DNA from: Chitinophagales bacterium
GTDB taxonomy: Bacteria; Bacteroidota; Bacteroidia; Chitinophagales; Chitinophagaceae
Assembly: GCA_025353485.1 (NCBI GenBank)
Contig: JANXQO010000067.1
Location: forward strand, 1-55,932
Direction: 5' to 3'
Length of the DNA stretch: 55,932 nt
The notes under the pieces were generated by a model. It searched no databases and was not told where the DNA came from. It saw nothing but the letters and a program-made list of their open reading frames with translations. The translations under genes were made by a program, and so were the position numbers. The first letter of the stretch is position 1. Each line of letters begins with the position of its first letter. This document shows positions 10,650 to 53,588 of the stretch, in pieces.

Positions 10650-11764
10650 ACTTCCTGAGGCGACAGTTTATTTATATTAATAGTACTATTAACGCCTGTG
10701 CAGGGAATTATATTTAATAATACCTCATAATTTTTTCTATTGTGCAGGCCTTTCGCATAAAGCTTATCATAATATTTTAATAATATGCTGAAGCATTCCC
10801 TGGTATTATCTTCTGATAAGAAGCTTATTGCATTCTTTGTTTCAAGCCCACCCAATCTTTTTTGAATTCGTTCAATAGCTTCTGACAATTTTTCTTTTTC
10901 AAAATTGCCGTAAGTATCCACCAGGTAATTTAATCTTTCTTCAAAGGGAATATCTAAAAAATAAACAGGGCTTTCTCTCATCTTCTCCCAAAATGTATTT
11001 GGTATGATCATCTTTCCAATTCGCTGGCTTTCATCCTCTATCCAAATATCTGAAGTATGAGGTAAGAAATCTGAGATAAGATTTCTATCTCTTACTTCCT
11101 GCTTCCTGCTTCCTGCTTTATGTAATTCTATTGCCAATACGTTTTCAAACATCTCCTGGGTGGGTTGGGGGTTTTCTCCAATCGCCCCAAATGCAGAGCC
11201 TTTATGGTTTGCAATATTTTCAAGATCAATAACTGGATAGCCTTTGCGTTTTAATTCCTGAAGTATTACTGTTTTTCCTGAGCCGGTATAACCACCTAAT
11301 ATTTTTAAATTATACATTGCATCAAATTGCTTTAATACCCAATTTCGAAATGCTTTATATCCTCCGGTTAATATATACACTTTAAAACCATACATATCCA
11401 AAAGCCAGGCTACGGCTGCACTTCGCATTCCTCCACGCCAGCAGTGAACCAAAATGGTGTTGCCGGTTACCGGTTGCTGGTTATCGGTAACCGGTAACTG
11501 GCAGCCTGCAATTGTTTCCACTTCTTCCACCATCTTCTTCATCTTTACTCCAAAGAAATCTAATCCAATTTTAATAGCCGCTTCCCTGCTTTGTTGTTTA
11601 TAGGTAGTTCCAACTATTTTTCTTTCTTCATCAGTAAATAATGGAAGAGAATATGCACCGGGAATTTGTGCATGGCTATATTCTGCCGGGCTGCGTACAT
11701 CAATAACAGGATATTGATTCGCCAGCTGCAAAAATTTTTCAATATCTATTTTTTCAATGCTCAT
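10646..11764 (-). CDS. mnmH: tRNA 2-selenouridine(34) synthase (rhodanese + P-loop)
   Basis: Replaces sulfur by selenium in 2-thiouridine at the wobble base of Lys, Glu and Gln tRNAs, using selenophosphate from SelD. The N-terminal rhodanese domain has catalytic Cys108 in VHCWRGGMRS. The C-terminal domain has the P-loop GGYTGSGKT (157-165). Two stretches, residues about 88-102 and 218-238, are encoded by repeat DNA and look like insertions relative to the family, yet the frame is kept. The length of 372 residues is near normal. It is first in the run mnmH-secreted protein-selD. Confidence 0.93.
   Translation of the reverse strand: MSIEKIDIEKFLQLANQYPVIDVRSPAEYSHAQIPGAYSLPLFTDEERKIVGTTYKQQSREAAIKIGLDFFGVKMKKMVEEVETIAGCQLPVTDNQQPVTGNTILVHCWRGGMRSAAVAWLLDMYGFKVYILTGGYKAFRNWVLKQFDAMYNLKILGGYTGSGKTVILQELKRKGYPVIDLENIANHKGSAFGAIGENPQPTQEMFENVLAIELHKAGSRKQEVRDRNLISDFLPHTSDIWIEDESQRIGKMIIPNTFWEKMRESPVYFLDIPFEERLNYLVDTYGNFEKEKLSEAIERIQKRLGGLETKNAISFLSEDNTRECFSILLKYYDKLYAKGLHNRKNYEVLLNIIPCTGVNSTININKLSPQEV
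11051..11118. repeat. in-frame repeat insertion in mnmH (second)
   Basis: Read on the minus strand, this has tandem GGAAGCA units followed by an imperfect dyad around AGATAGAAATCTTATCTCAG and a TCAGATTT/TCAGATAT direct repeat. It encodes about residues 218-238 of MnmH, a stretch with no counterpart I know in other MnmH proteins. Confidence 0.6.
11459..11503. repeat. in-frame CCGGTTAC repeat in mnmH (first)
   Basis: Several direct and inverted copies of GGTTACCGG/CCGGTAAC lie within 45 bp. They encode the Gln/Pro/Val/Thr-rich segment at residues 88-102, just before the catalytic Cys108 of the rhodanese domain. Confidence 0.65.
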
Positions 11765-14449: not shown

Positions 14450-15889
14450 ATGTTTAATAAAAGAACAAGAATAAAGGATCTGCTGGCAAATGAGAGCCTT
14501 AGCTCTGGGGTTATAGTTATGGGATGGGTGCGCACTTTCAGAAATAATCAATTTATTGCTTTAAATGATGGAAGCACCAATAATAATTTACAGGTTGTAG
14601 CAGAGCTTGGGAAGTTTAAGGAATCTATTTTAAAAAGAATAACAACAGGGGCTGCTTTAAAGGTTAGCGGAGAGATGATTTCTTCATTAGGAAAAGGACA
14701 AAAAATAGAATTAAAAGCAAATTCAATTGAAATATTAGGAGATAGTGATGCTGAAAAATATCCGCTACAGCCAAAAAAACACAGTCTTGAATTTTTAAGA
14801 GAGATAGCCCACCTGCGTTTTAGAACCAACACATTTGCTTCGGTTTTCAGGGTTCGCCATACATTGGCTTTTGCTGTTCATAAATTTTTTAATGATAAAG
14901 GATTTGTTTACCTGCACACACCCATTATAACTGCATCGGATGCAGAAGGTGCAGGAGAAATGTTTCATGTTACCAACTTTGATTTAACCCATCCTGCAAA
15001 AAATGAAGATGGTTCAATAAATTATAAAGAAGATTTTTTTGGCAAAGCAACTAATCTTACCGTAAGCGGGCAATTAGAAGGAGAGCTTGCTGCAATGGCG
15101 CTTGCAGATGTTTATACTTTTGGTCCAACTTTTCGTGCAGAAAATAGTAACACGGCAAGACATCTTGCAGAATTTTGGATGATAGAACCAGAGATGGCTT
15201 TTTATGATCTTGAAGATAATGCAAACCTTGCGGAAGAATTTATTAAGTATATTATTAGCTATGCTTTAGAAAACAATAAAGAAGATCTTGAATTTTTATC
15301 GCAACGGTTGGCCGAAGAAGAAAAACAAAAGCCCCAACAGGAGCGAAGCGAAATGGGGCTAATTGAAAAATTAGAATTTGTAATCAACAATAATTTTGAG
15401 CGGCTAACTTATACAGAAGCCGTACAAATTTTAAAAGAATCAAATCATAATAAGAAAAAGAAATTTCAATATTTAATTGAAGAATGGGGAGTTGATCTGC
15501 AAAGCGAACACGAAAGATATCTTGTAGAAAAACATTTTAAAAAACCGGTAATATTAATAGATTATCCAAAACAAATAAAGGCGTTTTACATGCGCCAGAA
15601 TGATGATGGAAAAACAGTTGCTGCAATGGATATTTTAGCACCGGGTATTGGTGAAATAGTCGGTGGTTCACAAAGAGAAGAAAGATTAGATAAGCTTACT
15701 GAACGCATGAATGAAATGCATGTATCAACTGAAGAATTGGATTGGTATTTAGATACAAGAAGATTTGGGTCTGTTCCTCATGCCGGCTTTGGGCTTGGCT
15801 TTGAGAGGGTTGTTCAATTTGTAACTGGTATGACAAATATCAGAGATGTAATTCCTTTCCCAAGAACGCCTAAGAGTGCAGAGTTTTAA
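14450..15889 (+). CDS. asnS: asparaginyl-tRNA synthetase
   Basis: Charges tRNA-Asn with asparagine. The N-terminal OB-fold anticodon-binding domain is followed by a class II catalytic core, with motif 2 in [21 protein letters not shown] and motif 3 in [15 protein letters not shown] near the C-terminus. The ATG at 14450 was chosen because the ATG at 14405 lies inside the promoter and its 15 extra residues are not family-like. The length is 479 residues. Residues around 295-304 ([10 protein letters not shown]) are encoded by a palindromic repeat inserted in frame between conserved helices. Confidence 0.95.
15330..15360. repeat. palindromic repeat inserted inside asnS
   Basis: Perfect 7-bp arms AGCCCCA (15330-15336) and TGGGGCT (15354-15360) enclose a small inner dyad GCGAAGC. 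Such AGCCCC...GGGGCT elements are normally intergenic in Bacteroidota; here the element is translated within AsnS. Confidence 0.75.
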
Positions 15890-40884: not shown

Positions 40885-41409
40885 ATGGAAGATGTAATTG
40901 TAAATAAAGTGGCAGAGAGCGGATTGATAACACTTGATCTTGAAGAATATTATCCAAAAGAAGAAACAGCGGGTTTCGATTTGAAGAACTTTCTTTTTAT
41001 GGAGCTGATTTTAAAAGAAAAAGAGTATCGCGAAGCTTTAAAAAATCTTGACTGGAGTGTGTATCAAAATAAAAATGTTTGCATTACGTGCAGCGCAGAT
41101 GCAGTGATACCCATGTGGGCTTATATGCTTGCCGCTACGTATTTACAACCAGTTGCCAAAGAAGTTTTTTTTGGTAATGAAGATTTTTTACATAGAACAT
41201 TATTCCTAAAAAATCTTTCAAGAATTAACCCGGCAGAATTTACAGATAAAAGAGTGGTTATAAAAGGCTGCGGAGATAAAAATATTTCCGAATCAGCATA
41301 CGTGGAAATAACAAAACTTTTAACACCTGTTGTTAAAAGTATAATGTATGGTGAGCCTTGCAGTACGGTGCCTATATATAAGAAGCCCCAACCCCCTAAA
41401 GGGGCTTAA
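40885..41409 (+). CDS. DUF2480 family protein
   Basis: Cytoplasmic protein of 174 residues found widely in Bacteroidota with no known function. The family pattern is clear: NKVAESGLITLDLEEYYP at the N-terminus, WSVYQNKNVCITCSADAVIPMWAYML (about 53-78), VVIKGCG, and SIMYGEPCSTVPIYKK near the end. Normal family members stop after that lysine pair. The last residues (PQPPKGA) are encoded by a CCCCTAAAGGGG repeat that supplies the stop codon. The gene is divergent from the carotenoid regulator. Confidence 0.85.
   Translation: MEDVIVNKVAESGLITLDLEEYYPKEETAGFDLKNFLFMELILKEKEYREALKNLDWSVYQNKNVCITCSADAVIPMWAYMLAATYLQPVAKEVFFGNEDFLHRTLFLKNLSRINPAEFTDKRVVIKGCGDKNISESAYVEITKLLTPVVKSIMYGEPCSTVPIYKKPQPPKGA
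41383..41407. repeat. palindromic repeat forming the 3' end of the DUF2480 gene
   Basis: AAGCCCC (41383-41389) / GGGGCTT (41401-41407) arms with an inner CCCCCTAAAGGGG. Same core as the array at 6918-6990. It encodes the last residues and overlaps the stop codon. Confidence 0.75.
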
Positions 41410-46172: not shown

Positions 46173-47267
46173 TTATAATTTTTCATACAAAGCCCTCAGC
46201 TTTTCTTTTGTCATAATTTTTTCCCAGTCTGTGCCTAAAGCATTTTCCCAAAGAGGCTTCATGCCAAGAGAAACATTTATCATTACCTGGAATTGTTCTT
46301 CCGTTAAAGCTGCGCATATATTTTTAGGGATATGGATATTATTTTTATCAACCATTTTTTTAAACTCTTTTACACCATCAGGATAATATTCTTCAAGATG
46401 ATTAAAAACAATACAATTACCAATACCATGTTTGGTGCCCAACAAATAACTCAATCCATAACTTACTGCATGGGCAACCCCAACCTGGCTGTATGCAATG
46501 CTCATTCCTCCGGCATAAGAGGCCATCATTAATTTATCATCATTTTCTTTATCCCATTTATCCCCGCCTGACCGTCGGGCAGGGTTTTCGATAAAAACTT
46601 CTCTGCAAAGCTGTAAGGCTTTTTCTCCGTAAGATTTACTGAATTCATTTAAAAATGTTCCCTGTAAACTTTCTATGCAATGAATATAACAATCCATACC
46701 TGTATAAAAACGCTGGTCTTTGGGAACGTTTGAAGTTAATTCGGGATCCAGAATAATTTGATCAAAGGGTGTAAAATCAGAATTCATTCCAAGCTTTTTG
46801 GTGGGCCCGGTAAGCACTGTTGTGCGGCTTACTTCAGCCCCGGTACCGCTTAATGTTGGGATACCGGCCTTGTAAACTCCCGGAACTTTTACCAGGTCCC
46901 ATCCCTGGTAATCAGCAGAGGAGCCGGTGTTGGTCATCATTAAAGCAACAGCTTTTGCAAGATCCATTGTACTGCCACCACCTATGCCAATAACTCCGCT
47001 AACGCTGCCAAACTCTTCCTTTAATTCAGCAGCAATACTATCTACGTAAGTTGTTTTGGGTTCGTAAGTAACATCGGCAAAAATTATTTTATCATTTTCT
47101 TTTACCGGAATTCTTTTTACCAATTCTTTATTATTAAAAAAATGATCTACTAAAAATATCATGGGCAAGCCTTCGCTGCGTTTAGTCTCCAGTATCTGAT
47201 CTAACTGGTTAAAAGAACCACGGCCATAAATAACATAACCCACCAGTTTAAAATTTCTGAATTGCAT
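46173..47267 (-). CDS. kdnB: iron-containing alcohol dehydrogenase family, KdnB-like (Kdo 8-oxidase)
   Basis: Fe-ADH family protein of 364 residues (a GTG at 47285 would give 370). NAD motif GIGGGSTMDLAKA is near residue 99. Metal ligands are a conserved Asp and His in MDCYIHCIES, His in GVAHAVSYG, and His in TKHGIGN. The pattern is closest to KdnB, which oxidises C8 of Kdo before KdnA aminates it. The adjacent kdsB supports that role. A palindromic repeat encodes NPARRSGG around residues 228-235. Confidence 0.8.
   Translation of the reverse strand: MQFRNFKLVGYVIYGRGSFNQLDQILETKRSEGLPMIFLVDHFFNNKELVKRIPVKENDKIIFADVTYEPKTTYVDSIAAELKEEFGSVSGVIGIGGGSTMDLAKAVALMMTNTGSSADYQGWDLVKVPGVYKAGIPTLSGTGAEVSRTTVLTGPTKKLGMNSDFTPFDQIILDPELTSNVPKDQRFYTGMDCYIHCIESLQGTFLNEFSKSYGEKALQLCREVFIENPARRSGGDKWDKENDDKLMMASYAGGMSIAYSQVGVAHAVSYGLSYLLGTKHGIGNCIVFNHLEEYYPDGVKEFKKMVDKNNIHIPKNICAALTEEQFQVMINVSLGMKPLWENALGTDWEKIMTKEKLRALYEKL
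46563..46584. repeat. palindromic repeat inserted inside the kdnB-like gene
   Basis: CCCGCCTGACCGTCGGGCAGGG: arms CCTGACC / GGGCAGG pair apart from one G-U-type position. Similar CCTGCCCGTCGGGCAGG elements are common between genes in Bacteroidota. Here it lies in frame. Confidence 0.65.
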
Positions 47268-47300
47268 TGGAGAAAATTGAAACACGAATTTAAGAATGAA

Positions 47301-48520: not shown

Positions 48521-48569
48521 AATCGTGAAACGTGAAAATCTCACGTTTCACCTCTCACGTTTCACGATT
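48521..48569. repeat. inverted repeat built from TCACGTTTCAC units
   Basis: AATCGTGAAACGTGA (48521-48535) and its perfect complement (48555-48569), with a third TCACGTTTCAC copy at 48541-48551 between them. The right arm touches the stop codon of the prohibitin-like gene. Confidence 0.8.
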
Positions 48570-49471
48570 TATTTATCACTAAGCATTACAGGAGTGTTTC
48601 CCTTACCCATTATAACGATCTTGGAATTTTGACTGAGTGCTATCTCTTTCATTGCTTTTATTTGCTCGTATTGTAATTGCTGATCGGTCAGTCCTGTATT
48701 TATGATACGCTGATAATCGGCAATACCCTGGGCTTCCACTCTTTTTCTTTCAGCTTCCTGCCTTTCTTTTTGCAGAACAAATTCCATTTTCTTGGCATCC
48801 TGTTCGGCATTTATTTTTGATTCAATAGAAGCCTTTACAGAATTTGGAAGTGTAATATTTCTTACCAATAATTGCTCAAGTAATAATCCCCGCTTTTTAA
48901 AATCTTCTTCAATGCTTTTATAAATACGTTGTTGAAATTCATCCCTCTTGGTGCTGAATAATTCAATTGCCTGGTAATACACAGCATTGTCACGGATCTT
49001 TGTTCGTGTAATAGGCCGTACAATTTTATCTTTAAAATCAAGCCCTGTTTGTTGTATCAATTTGGGGGCATCATCCGCAACAACCCTGTACAAAACAGTA
49101 AGGTCAATGGTTACTTCCAGGCCATCGCTTGTTAAAACCCGGATGGCATCATCTCCTAGTTGATTACCTTCATCATGTACACCACTCATTGTGTAATTCT
49201 GTGTTTTTACATCCACCTTTTTTATTTCATACAAAGGGTTTACCAAGTGAAGGCCGCTGTTAAGCACATCATTTTTTACACTGCCAAACAAAACCTTAAT
49301 ACCAATTTCCCCGGCATCTATCTGCACAACAGAAGAAATAATTATTCCCAGCAAAATAAACAACACGCCAATAATGCGGCCGATTTTGCCATATGGATGC
49401 AGCGCAACATTATTTTTTACAATTATGCCGGTTACACCAAAAATTATAAGACCAAGAATAATGAATATCAT
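48569..49471 (-). CDS. prohibitin/SPFH domain membrane protein
   Basis: A 300-residue protein with two N-terminal hydrophobic helices (about 1-18 and 31-50). An SPFH/Band 7 domain follows from QIDAGEIGIKVLFGSV to about 225. A coiled-coil tail contains EAERKRVEAQGIADYQRIINTGL. It is the prohibitin subtype, thought to form membrane microdomain scaffolds. It is flanked on both sides by repeat clusters and is probably transcribed alone. Confidence 0.88.
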   Translation of the reverse strand: MIFIILGLIIFGVTGIIVKNNVALHPYGKIGRIIGVLFILLGIIISSVVQIDAGEIGIKVLFGSVKNDVLNSGLHLVNPLYEIKKVDVKTQNYTMSGVHDEGNQLGDDAIRVLTSDGLEVTIDLTVLYRVVADDAPKLIQQTGLDFKDKIVRPITRTKIRDNAVYYQAIELFSTKRDEFQQRIYKSIEEDFKKRGLLLEQLLVRNITLPNSVKASIESKINAEQDAKKMEFVLQKERQEAERKRVEAQGIADYQRIINTGLTDQQLQYEQIKAMKEIALSQNSKIVIMGKGNTPVMLSDK

Positions 49472-52190: not shown

Positions 52191-52328
52191 ATTGTTTTTT
52201 TCTCGTCGAAGATAATTAAGGTTGATACTAAAGAGTGCATACAACTCATAAATATACGAAGGTTTTTAAAAGCTAATTTCCAAAGCAAACCAATGTCTAT
52301 TGGCTTTATTAATCCATAACTTTACATC

Positions 52329-52424
52329 ATGTCTTCTCTCACCATAACCATTATACAACCAAATCTTCATTGGGAAAATAAAAAAGCAAATCCTAATATG
52401 CCTGCTCAATAAATTGAACGCATA
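52329..52424 (+). pseudogene. duplicated, decayed 5' end of the nitrilase gene
   Basis: About 95 bp starting ATGTCTTCTCTCAC closely resemble the first codons of the nitrilase gene at 52782. The reading MSSLTITIIQPNLHWENKKAN differs from the intact copy at a few residues and meets TAA at 52410-52412, where the intact gene has AAA. Similarity fades near 52424. Between the two copies lies the hicBA module. Confidence 0.8.
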
Positions 52425-52680: not shown

Positions 52681-52777
52681 ATTATATTCCTCAGACCACA
52701 TAGTAAAAACTCTTTTACAAAAAGGTTTTGTTTTTATATCCCAGAGAGGCAGCCATAAAAAATATCGTAAAACATAA
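52673..52777 (+). pseudogene. hicA: truncated HicA toxin
   Basis: The 34-codon frame MPKLYSSDHIVKTLLQKG followed by FVFISQRGSHKKYRKT and a TAA at 52775-52777. This is the N-terminal half of HicA including the catalytic His in RGSHKKY. The usual remaining 30-40 residues are missing, and the nitrilase ATG begins 4 bp after the stop. A toxin lacking the last strand and helix is unlikely to be active. Confidence 0.75.
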
Positions 52778-52781
52778 AATC

Positions 52782-53588
52782 ATGTCTTCTCTCACAATAA
52801 CGCTTATACAACCCAATCTCGTTTGGGAAAATAAAAAAGCAAACCTTGATATGCTTGCTCAAAAAATTGAGAGCATACAAGAAAAAACAGAAGTGGTTAT
52901 TCTTCCCGAAATGTTCAGCACAGGATTTAGCATGCAGCCAAAACTGTTAGCAGAAACAATGACTGGAGAAACAATTGAGTGGATGAAAAAAATCGCTTCT
53001 TCAAAAAAAATAATTTTTACAGGAAGTGTGATCATAGAAGAGGATGGAAAATATTTTAACCGTCTTGTGTGGATGTTGCCAAACGGAGAGTATGGTGTGT
53101 ATGATAAGCGGCATTTGTTTGCGTACGCAGATGAACACAATCATTATTCGGCAGGAAATAAAAGATTGATCGCACAGGTAAAAGGATGGAAAATAAATCT
53201 GCAGGTTTGTTATGATCTGAGGTTTCCGGTGTGGGCAAGACAATCTCCCCCCCCCGGGGGGGAGGCCGGGAGGGAGCTTGAATATGACTTGTTAGTATAT
53301 GTAGCAAACTGGCCCGAGAGAAGAATTACTGCATGGAAAACTTTGCTGCAGGCGAGGGCGATAGAAAATCAATGTTATGTTGTTGGAGTTAACCGTGTGG
53401 GTGACGATGGTAATAATATTCATTACAGTGGTGAGAGTATGATCATTGATCCGCTGGGAAAAATTTTGTACCACAAAGCAAATGAAGAAGATGTTTTTAC
53501 TTATACATTGCAAAAAGAAAAACTGGATGAAGTGAGAGAAAAATTTCCTTTCTGGAGAGATGCAGATTCTTTTGATATATTGCCATAA
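52782..53588 (+). CDS. omega-amidase-like carbon-nitrogen hydrolase (nitrilase family)
   Basis: Nitrilase-superfamily amidase of 268 residues, closest to YafV/omega-amidases that hydrolyse alpha-ketoglutaramate or ketosuccinamate. The catalytic triad is Glu43 (LPEMFSTGF), Lys109 (YDKRHLF) and Cys143 (QVCYDLRFPVW). Residues 154-166 (QSPPPGGEAGREL region) are encoded by a C/G-rich palindromic repeat interrupting a normally continuous FPVWAR...YDLLVYVANWPERR block. ATG 52782 is supported by the family N-terminus. A possible substrate link is the aminotransferase at 28255, an inference from enzyme families. Confidence 0.9.
   Translation: MSSLTITLIQPNLVWENKKANLDMLAQKIESIQEKTEVVILPEMFSTGFSMQPKLLAETMTGETIEWMKKIASSKKIIFTGSVIIEEDGKYFNRLVWMLPNGEYGVYDKRHLFAYADEHNHYSAGNKRLIAQVKGWKINLQVCYDLRFPVWARQSPPPGGEAGRELEYDLLVYVANWPERRITAWKTLLQARAIENQCYVVGVNRVGDDGNNIHYSGESMIIDPLGKILYHKANEEDVFTYTLQKEKLDEVREKFPFWRDADSFDILP
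53241..53279. repeat. C10/G7-type palindromic repeat inside the nitrilase gene
   Basis: A run of ten C directly followed by seven G plus GGAGG and GGGAG units, in frame, next to conserved codons for the active-site loop. Such CTCCC...GGGAG elements recur at 49511-49640. Confidence 0.75.

Follow-up and report, generated by a model that had tools for sequence, protein, structure and literature searches.

Does the palindrome inside the asparaginyl-tRNA synthetase gene (asnS) of this Chitinophagales bacterium represent a mobile element that was inserted in frame into an essential enzyme? A precedent is given by the Rickettsia palindromic elements (RPEs), described in the available sections of PMC10969869 as palindromic repeats that lie in frame in unrelated genes and add a tolerated peptide. 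The initial annotation likened the hairpin AGCCCCA...TGGGGCT to these RPEs and took it, together with mnmH, kdnB, a nitrilase and a DUF2480 gene, to indicate a family able to spread into coding DNA. Our analysis of the window (the whole stretch of 55,932 nucleotides), of its genome and of related genomes leads us to conclude with high confidence that a different palindrome, CTCCCC-GGGGAG, is an element dispersed between and inside genes, and that the asnS palindrome is a mere coincidence of codons.

Table 1. Features of the window discussed in the text
Feature	Position	Strand	Reading	Basis
asnS, asparaginyl-tRNA synthetase	14450..15889	+	intact	ORF and NCBIfam match
Palindrome in asnS	15330..15360	+	ancestral asnS codons (eleven residues), no insertion	orthologues, 6pqh, shuffles
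Palindrome in mnmH	11463..11498	.	in variable loop; repeat pattern tested not dispersed
DUF2480 hairpin	41383..41407	.	over last codons, between convergent genes, terminator-like
Nitrilase-superfamily amidohydrolase	52782..53588	+	element copy in variable loop
Looser CTCCCC-loop-GGGGAG copy in nitrilase	53245..53279	+	8-nt loop, read in frame as SPPPGGEAGREL

The asnS palindrome is ancestral coding sequence

The palindrome is present as described: AGCCCCAACAGGAGCGAAGCGAAATGGGGCT, the sole such match within the window, combines a perfect 7-bp stem with a 17-nt loop. It is also read without a break of frame, asnS running across it in eleven codons within an ORF that stays open for 478 residues beyond the start Met, and the product scores 658 bits against the NCBIfam model PRK03932 (cut-off 414).

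The clean insertion expected on alignment with relatives did not appear. AsnS was searched in 59 genomes (own included), 58 of which gave some match, and our alignment comprises the 29 orthologues from other genomes that were returned as loci; outside it stand seven full-length hits without a locus, two partial hits and weak AsnS/AspS-like hits from more distant genomes. None of the 29 is gapped at the palindrome region. The identical eleven residues occur without the palindrome in five of them, all from the same genus (L019, L023, L024, L025 and L028), and the remaining orthologues carry one to several substitutions across the segment. At the DNA level the 5' arm AGCCCC is found in 3/29 (L026, L030, L038) and the 3' arm GGGGCT in 4/29 (L011, L014, L016, L017), the two arms together in none of the 29, and the stem is not present in the nearest relatives G008, G015 and G010. 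The solved structure 6pqh, an AsnS that aligns with residues 6-478 of the protein studied here, reads KPEKERAKEGL at this region without a gap, and in the more distant structures 5zg8 and 1x54 the region is missing within a wider gap; together, these structures indicate that the segment belongs to this type of AsnS and is older than the genus. With the orthologues ungapped, insertion is rejected, and what remains is ancestral coding sequence of an ordinary kind, in which the codons used for pre-existing residues, CCC for Pro and GGG-CTA for Gly-Leu, happen to form a palindrome.

Counting as a hairpin any stem of 7 bp or more that includes five or more G/C and encloses a loop of 3-30, we found one in 17 of 300 synonymous shuffles of asnS. 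The asnS hairpin alone is unremarkable; hairpins are over-represented across the window, whose 47 CDSs hold seven (two in mnmH) versus a shuffle mean of 2.45 (range 1-4, 20 shuffles). Nor does the element recur. Across the 3.82-Mb genome, AGCCCC-N3-25-GGGGCT is found at just three places, with three different loops (reversed control 0), which rejects membership in a dispersed family, and the 7-bp stem, when loops of 8-24 are allowed, is found at two places, again with different loops. The word that forms the loop, AGCGAAGCGA, is present at seven places, of which the six outside asnS have flanks unrelated to it; the reversed control for this word is uninformative, as it reads the same in reverse. 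The whole-genome search thus leaves the supposedly dispersed asnS element as a single copy, unique in the genome.

That the DNA or RNA has been kept for a regulatory role in this species, over an ancestral protein, is very improbable: the stem is perfect in its own genome and the 31-mer folds as DNA at -5.9 kcal/mol (z -1.98, equally stable in 11 of 200 shuffles), but it is missing from the three nearest relatives and its frequency fits synonymous shuffling. As an intrinsic terminator the hairpin was rejected, since it lies in mid-gene and is followed by aattgaaaaa with no T run, and we know of no reason for assigning a role to it. That it is an inserted RPE-like element of a decayed or rare type, as a perfect in-frame stem and the existence of intragenic palindromes in the genome might suggest, has practically no likelihood left in the face of ungapped orthologues, an ungapped 6pqh, identical residues without the palindrome and the lack of repetition in the genome.

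The other palindromes of the window

The proposal that the palindromes of the sibling genes form one family survived in part. The nitrilase copy does resemble the dispersed family described below, and its insert is missing in two of the three nearest congeners (G008 and G010); at the same loop, G007 and G018 have DNA like that of this genome (CTCCTCCTCCTTTGGG...GAGGCCGGGAGGGGGC type), and G003 and G015 a different palindrome (CTCCCCTCTCC...). As a dispersed family the mnmH palindrome was rejected, the one pattern tested occurring at one place only in the genome. The DUF2480 palindrome, which lies where the Pfam match runs out (residues 4-167 of 174) and adjoins the convergent gene, is placed as a terminator would be. 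The iron-alcohol-dehydrogenase-like gene 46173-47285, which we took to be the kdnB of the initial annotation, has no stem above thresholds and no family model at cut-off.

Several further repeats were seen in or around these genes. The MnmH loop holds unrelated repeat-like sequences of differing length in most relatives. A 107-bp direct repeat (52318-52424 and 52771-52877, 84% alike) covers the start of the nitrilase gene, and the copy lying upstream aligns to residues 1-44 of the nitrilase, interrupted by three stops; the small ORF between the repeats presumably resembles a HicB-type antitoxin. A palindrome of GTGAAACGTGA-type repeats (48521-48569) occupies the gap before an HflK-like gene (48569-49471).

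A dispersed CTCCCC-GGGGAG family

Testing of the nitrilase palindrome led us to the CTCCCC-GGGGAG family. The pattern CTCCCCN{3,5}GGGGAG occurs at 52 places in this genome versus none for the reversed control, and the wider CTCCCCN{2,30}GGGGAG, the only set in which the nitrilase copy of the window is counted, at 63 versus 1. Among the matches listed we read 45 distinct copies of this genome with loops of 2-6, and in addition the window copy, the other copies with loops above 6 (C87, C159:24687) being left out. Flanks are common to most of them. The strict form is AAAGTCTCCCC-NNNN-GGGGGAGATTTAGAGGGGGCT, about 36 bp, from which relatives differ in flank or loop: in this genome, ATAGAG or GCCGGGAG-type flanks replace ATTTAGAG, and a few copies have 3-nt loops with other flanks. 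Among the matches listed from named genomes, 122 copies define a conserved unit of 36 bases, AAAGTCTCCCCTaCCGGGGGAGATTTAGAGGGGGCT, with information near zero on either side; since the inner 32 bases served as the search pattern, independent support for this boundary comes from the outer AAA and T only.

The distribution of the family is patchy. Among the 59 genomes searched (own included), CTCCCCN{3,5}GGGGAG is absent from 43, with counts of 34 in G015, 25 in G010, 17 in G031, 9 in G003 and 8 in G008; within the genus copy number runs 52, 34, 25, 9, 8 and often 0. The strict form is found in six of 395 genomes drawn over the phylum (own included) and in at least 117 stretches of named genomes, mostly of Mucilaginibacter; the matches listed also include Chitinophagaceae, Terrimonas, Chryseotalea and Bacteroidetes MAGs, and single listed MAGs labelled Prevotellaceae, Bacteroidaceae, Kapabacteria and Proteobacteria. 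One 32-mer is identical in this genome and in G154, which belongs to another family; this match suggests that the element was transferred or has spread recently.

Copies inside genes

We scored a copy as in-gene when its ORF was 180 aa or longer and the coding flanks reached at least 30 and 20 codons. By this measure 22 of the 45 copies are read in frame in long ORFs, compared with 2223 of 3000 random positions of the window, indicating that copies are scarcer in genes than chance predicts, yet far from absent. Their hosts are PDH E2, a MetH-type homocysteine methyltransferase (two copies), NadB, an alpha/beta hydrolase, Fmt (fmt), MetRS (metG), AroA (aroA), AroB (aroB), an aminotransferase (two copies), QueE (queE), the CCA-adding enzyme, IcmF, GuaA (guaA), HolB (holB), A2M (two copies), UvrA (uvrA), RelA/SpoT (relA/spoT), hydroxyproline epimerase (HypE) and DUF2400. 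The match to a family model extends across the insertion in 18 of these 19 proteins (20 of the 22 copies), A2M being the exception. The tRNA synthetase that carries a family copy in this genome is thus MetRS, not AsnS. The GuaA, AroB and second MetH copies have a 3-nt loop and flanks unlike the strict form, and may, with the 8-nt-loop copy of the window, constitute a related but distinct type.

In the named genomes, 19 of 120 strict copies among the matches listed lie in long ORFs as judged by ORF length alone; of the 17 ORFs concerned, 10 have a family model that extends over or brackets the element, 2 have one located entirely downstream of it, and 5 gave no match at thresholds. The hosts include Mucilaginibacter leuS (two copies in two genomes), smc (SMC, three genomes) and ispG (IspG, two genomes), with UvrA, HsdM and MnmC2 as further cases; in threonine synthase and in the small subunit of acetolactate synthase, the matched domain lies downstream of the copy. 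The two leuS copies, seen in two genomes (L163, L196), are in opposite orientations about 156 codons apart.

Presence and absence in congeners

Twenty joined segments were queried against G008, G015 and G010, and 19 gave any orthologue. For nine of the 19 (MetH, two aminotransferase sites, A2M, GuaA, QueE, AroA, AroB and the alpha/beta hydrolase), at least one of these relatives has an orthologue without the element. All three relatives lack it in MetH and at both aminotransferase sites, although at the first of these G015 has other filler of similar length. In A2M it is missing from 2/2 orthologues at the second site and 1/1 at the first; G015 has a core palindrome at another position of the same piece of contig (C131:3541). 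It is missing from two of three relatives in GuaA, QueE, AroB and AroA, with other filler in both AroA cases, and from one of three in the alpha/beta hydrolase. RelA, DUF2400, IcmF, CCA and HolB have an element or similar filler in most or all relatives examined; the one MetRS orthologue found in the three genomes also has an insert, and HypE gave no orthologue. Net insertion lengths vary from 15 to 120 nt, which does not support a clean single-step insertion of 36 bp, and no target-site duplication was identified at the insertions.

The element in the CCA enzyme of G015 is oriented the other way. In two unrelated G010 genes, for the CCA enzyme (L283, at the DNA level) and PDH E2 (L308), the element itself harbours a further palindrome-like unit in frame, translated as LPxGQAG.

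Reading frames of the strict copies

Across 128 copies of the strict pattern, two of the six frames are always closed and the others are open in 128, 128, 125 and 46 copies. The in-gene strict copies number 23 (4 of 8 in this genome and 19 of 120 among the matches listed from named genomes), and all 23 use only two frames, 20 reading VSPxGGDLEGA and three APSKSPPxGET. The LPHRGRFRGG frame, open in all 23, and the PPLNLPRWGR frame, open in 12, are used in none. On the assumption that each copy takes any open frame with equal probability, independently of the others, P would be about 3e-6; independence does not fully hold, since leuS contributes two copies in each of two genomes, smc three and ispG two. 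Such a bias in frame use indicates that selection acted once copies had inserted.

Discussion

The broader claim that a palindromic family can spread into coding DNA in the manner of RPEs is strongly supported, through other copies in this genome and in others, even as the asnS palindrome leaves nothing to explain; the idea behind the initial annotation was right for another element, CTCCCC-GGGGAG. Most likely, we think, this is a selfish, REP/MITE-like element moved in trans by a putative enzyme. Read as VSPTGGDLEGA on one strand and APSKSPPVGET on the other, it would add a short peptide, with a high content of Pro, Gly, Ser and charged residues, that is probably neutral and tolerated in a loop or linker, and insertions in other phases would be removed by selection.

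Which enzyme might move it? A RAYT-type Y1 transposase of the same genome is an obvious candidate, for ten Y1_Tnp matches exceed the cut-off and the accessible text of PMC3733652 links REPs to RAYTs. None of the ten loci, however, has the CTCCCC-GGGGAG element in the stretch read, where an isolated 7-base core word in L120 is the nearest likeness, and six have other palindromes within 700 bases. The flanks of these genes are thus rejected as the source of the element, and mobilisation by one of them strikes us as unlikely. In L113, L120 and L121 the Y1 transposase genes are flanked on both sides by palindromes of their own (CTCCGCC...GGCGGAG; TGTCCT...AGGACA type).

We also weighed whether the in-gene copies are convergent Pro/Gly-rich protein linkers and not DNA elements at all, given that the encoded peptides are linker-like and that the PDH E2 and MetRS copies lie in or beside inter-domain linkers. 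We reject this as scarcely credible, because the same DNA, synonymous sites and palindrome included, stands outside long ORFs and in both orientations, recurs as an identical strict 32-mer in a genome of another family and occurs in GuaA and QueE, where some relatives lack any such stretch.

The selfish element that we favour can be set beside several known systems. In the parts of PMC3733652 open to us, GTAG/CGTC REPs are 20-40 bp palindromes of high copy number that are mostly intergenic; some are in frame in genes of several species, including uvrA and tRNA synthetases, and CGTC repeats are mentioned in Bacteroidetes. A palindrome of about 36 bp at 52 places is of the size and abundance of REPs in general, but the GTAG/CGTC tag is missing, the consensus of 122 named copies being AAAGTCTCCCC...GGGGGCT without GTAG or CGTC at its ends, and so is the RAYT flanking (0/10 own-genome Y1_Tnp loci). 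As excerpted, PMC12306157 (RepRanger) defines REPs as seldom overlapping coding regions, and PMC6006769 deals with Y1 transposases, chiefly from Bacteroidetes, whose flanking structures are atypical. MITEs are introduced in the consulted part of the review PMC10969869 as small non-autonomous repeats that create in-frame fusions; both they and the present family are small repeats in frame, and the family is without demonstrated terminal inverted repeats and target duplication.

The likeness to RPEs is closer. Going by the portions seen of PMC10969869, both are palindromic repeats in frame in unrelated genes, and the CTCCCC-GGGGAG family likewise has numerous copies, some of which are read in frame within unrelated genes, and orthologues that lack the element. 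The two differ in that RPEs are about 150 bp long and the present element, in Bacteroidota, about 36 bp, a comparison made by description and not by sequence; asnS contains no insertion. In-frame palindromic elements are described, within the sections consulted of PMC10969869 and PMC3733652, mainly for Rickettsia and as tagged REPs of other bacteria, and we found no description of the CTCCCC-GGGGAG family in the open-licence PMC literature, taken without supplements. With dozens of in-gene copies and congeners that lack them at the same site, the family offers natural experiments on peptide addition to working enzymes, and it provides a substrate for seeking the mobilising enzyme. On balance, and with some reserve, we are inclined to regard it as the Bacteroidota's own, independently arisen counterpart of the RPEs: an untagged selfish palindrome of about 36 bp, or 12 codons, that spreads between families, is tolerated in two frames and has repeatedly entered the same permissive loops in essential enzymes, at times in opposite orientation or with a second palindrome nested in frame.
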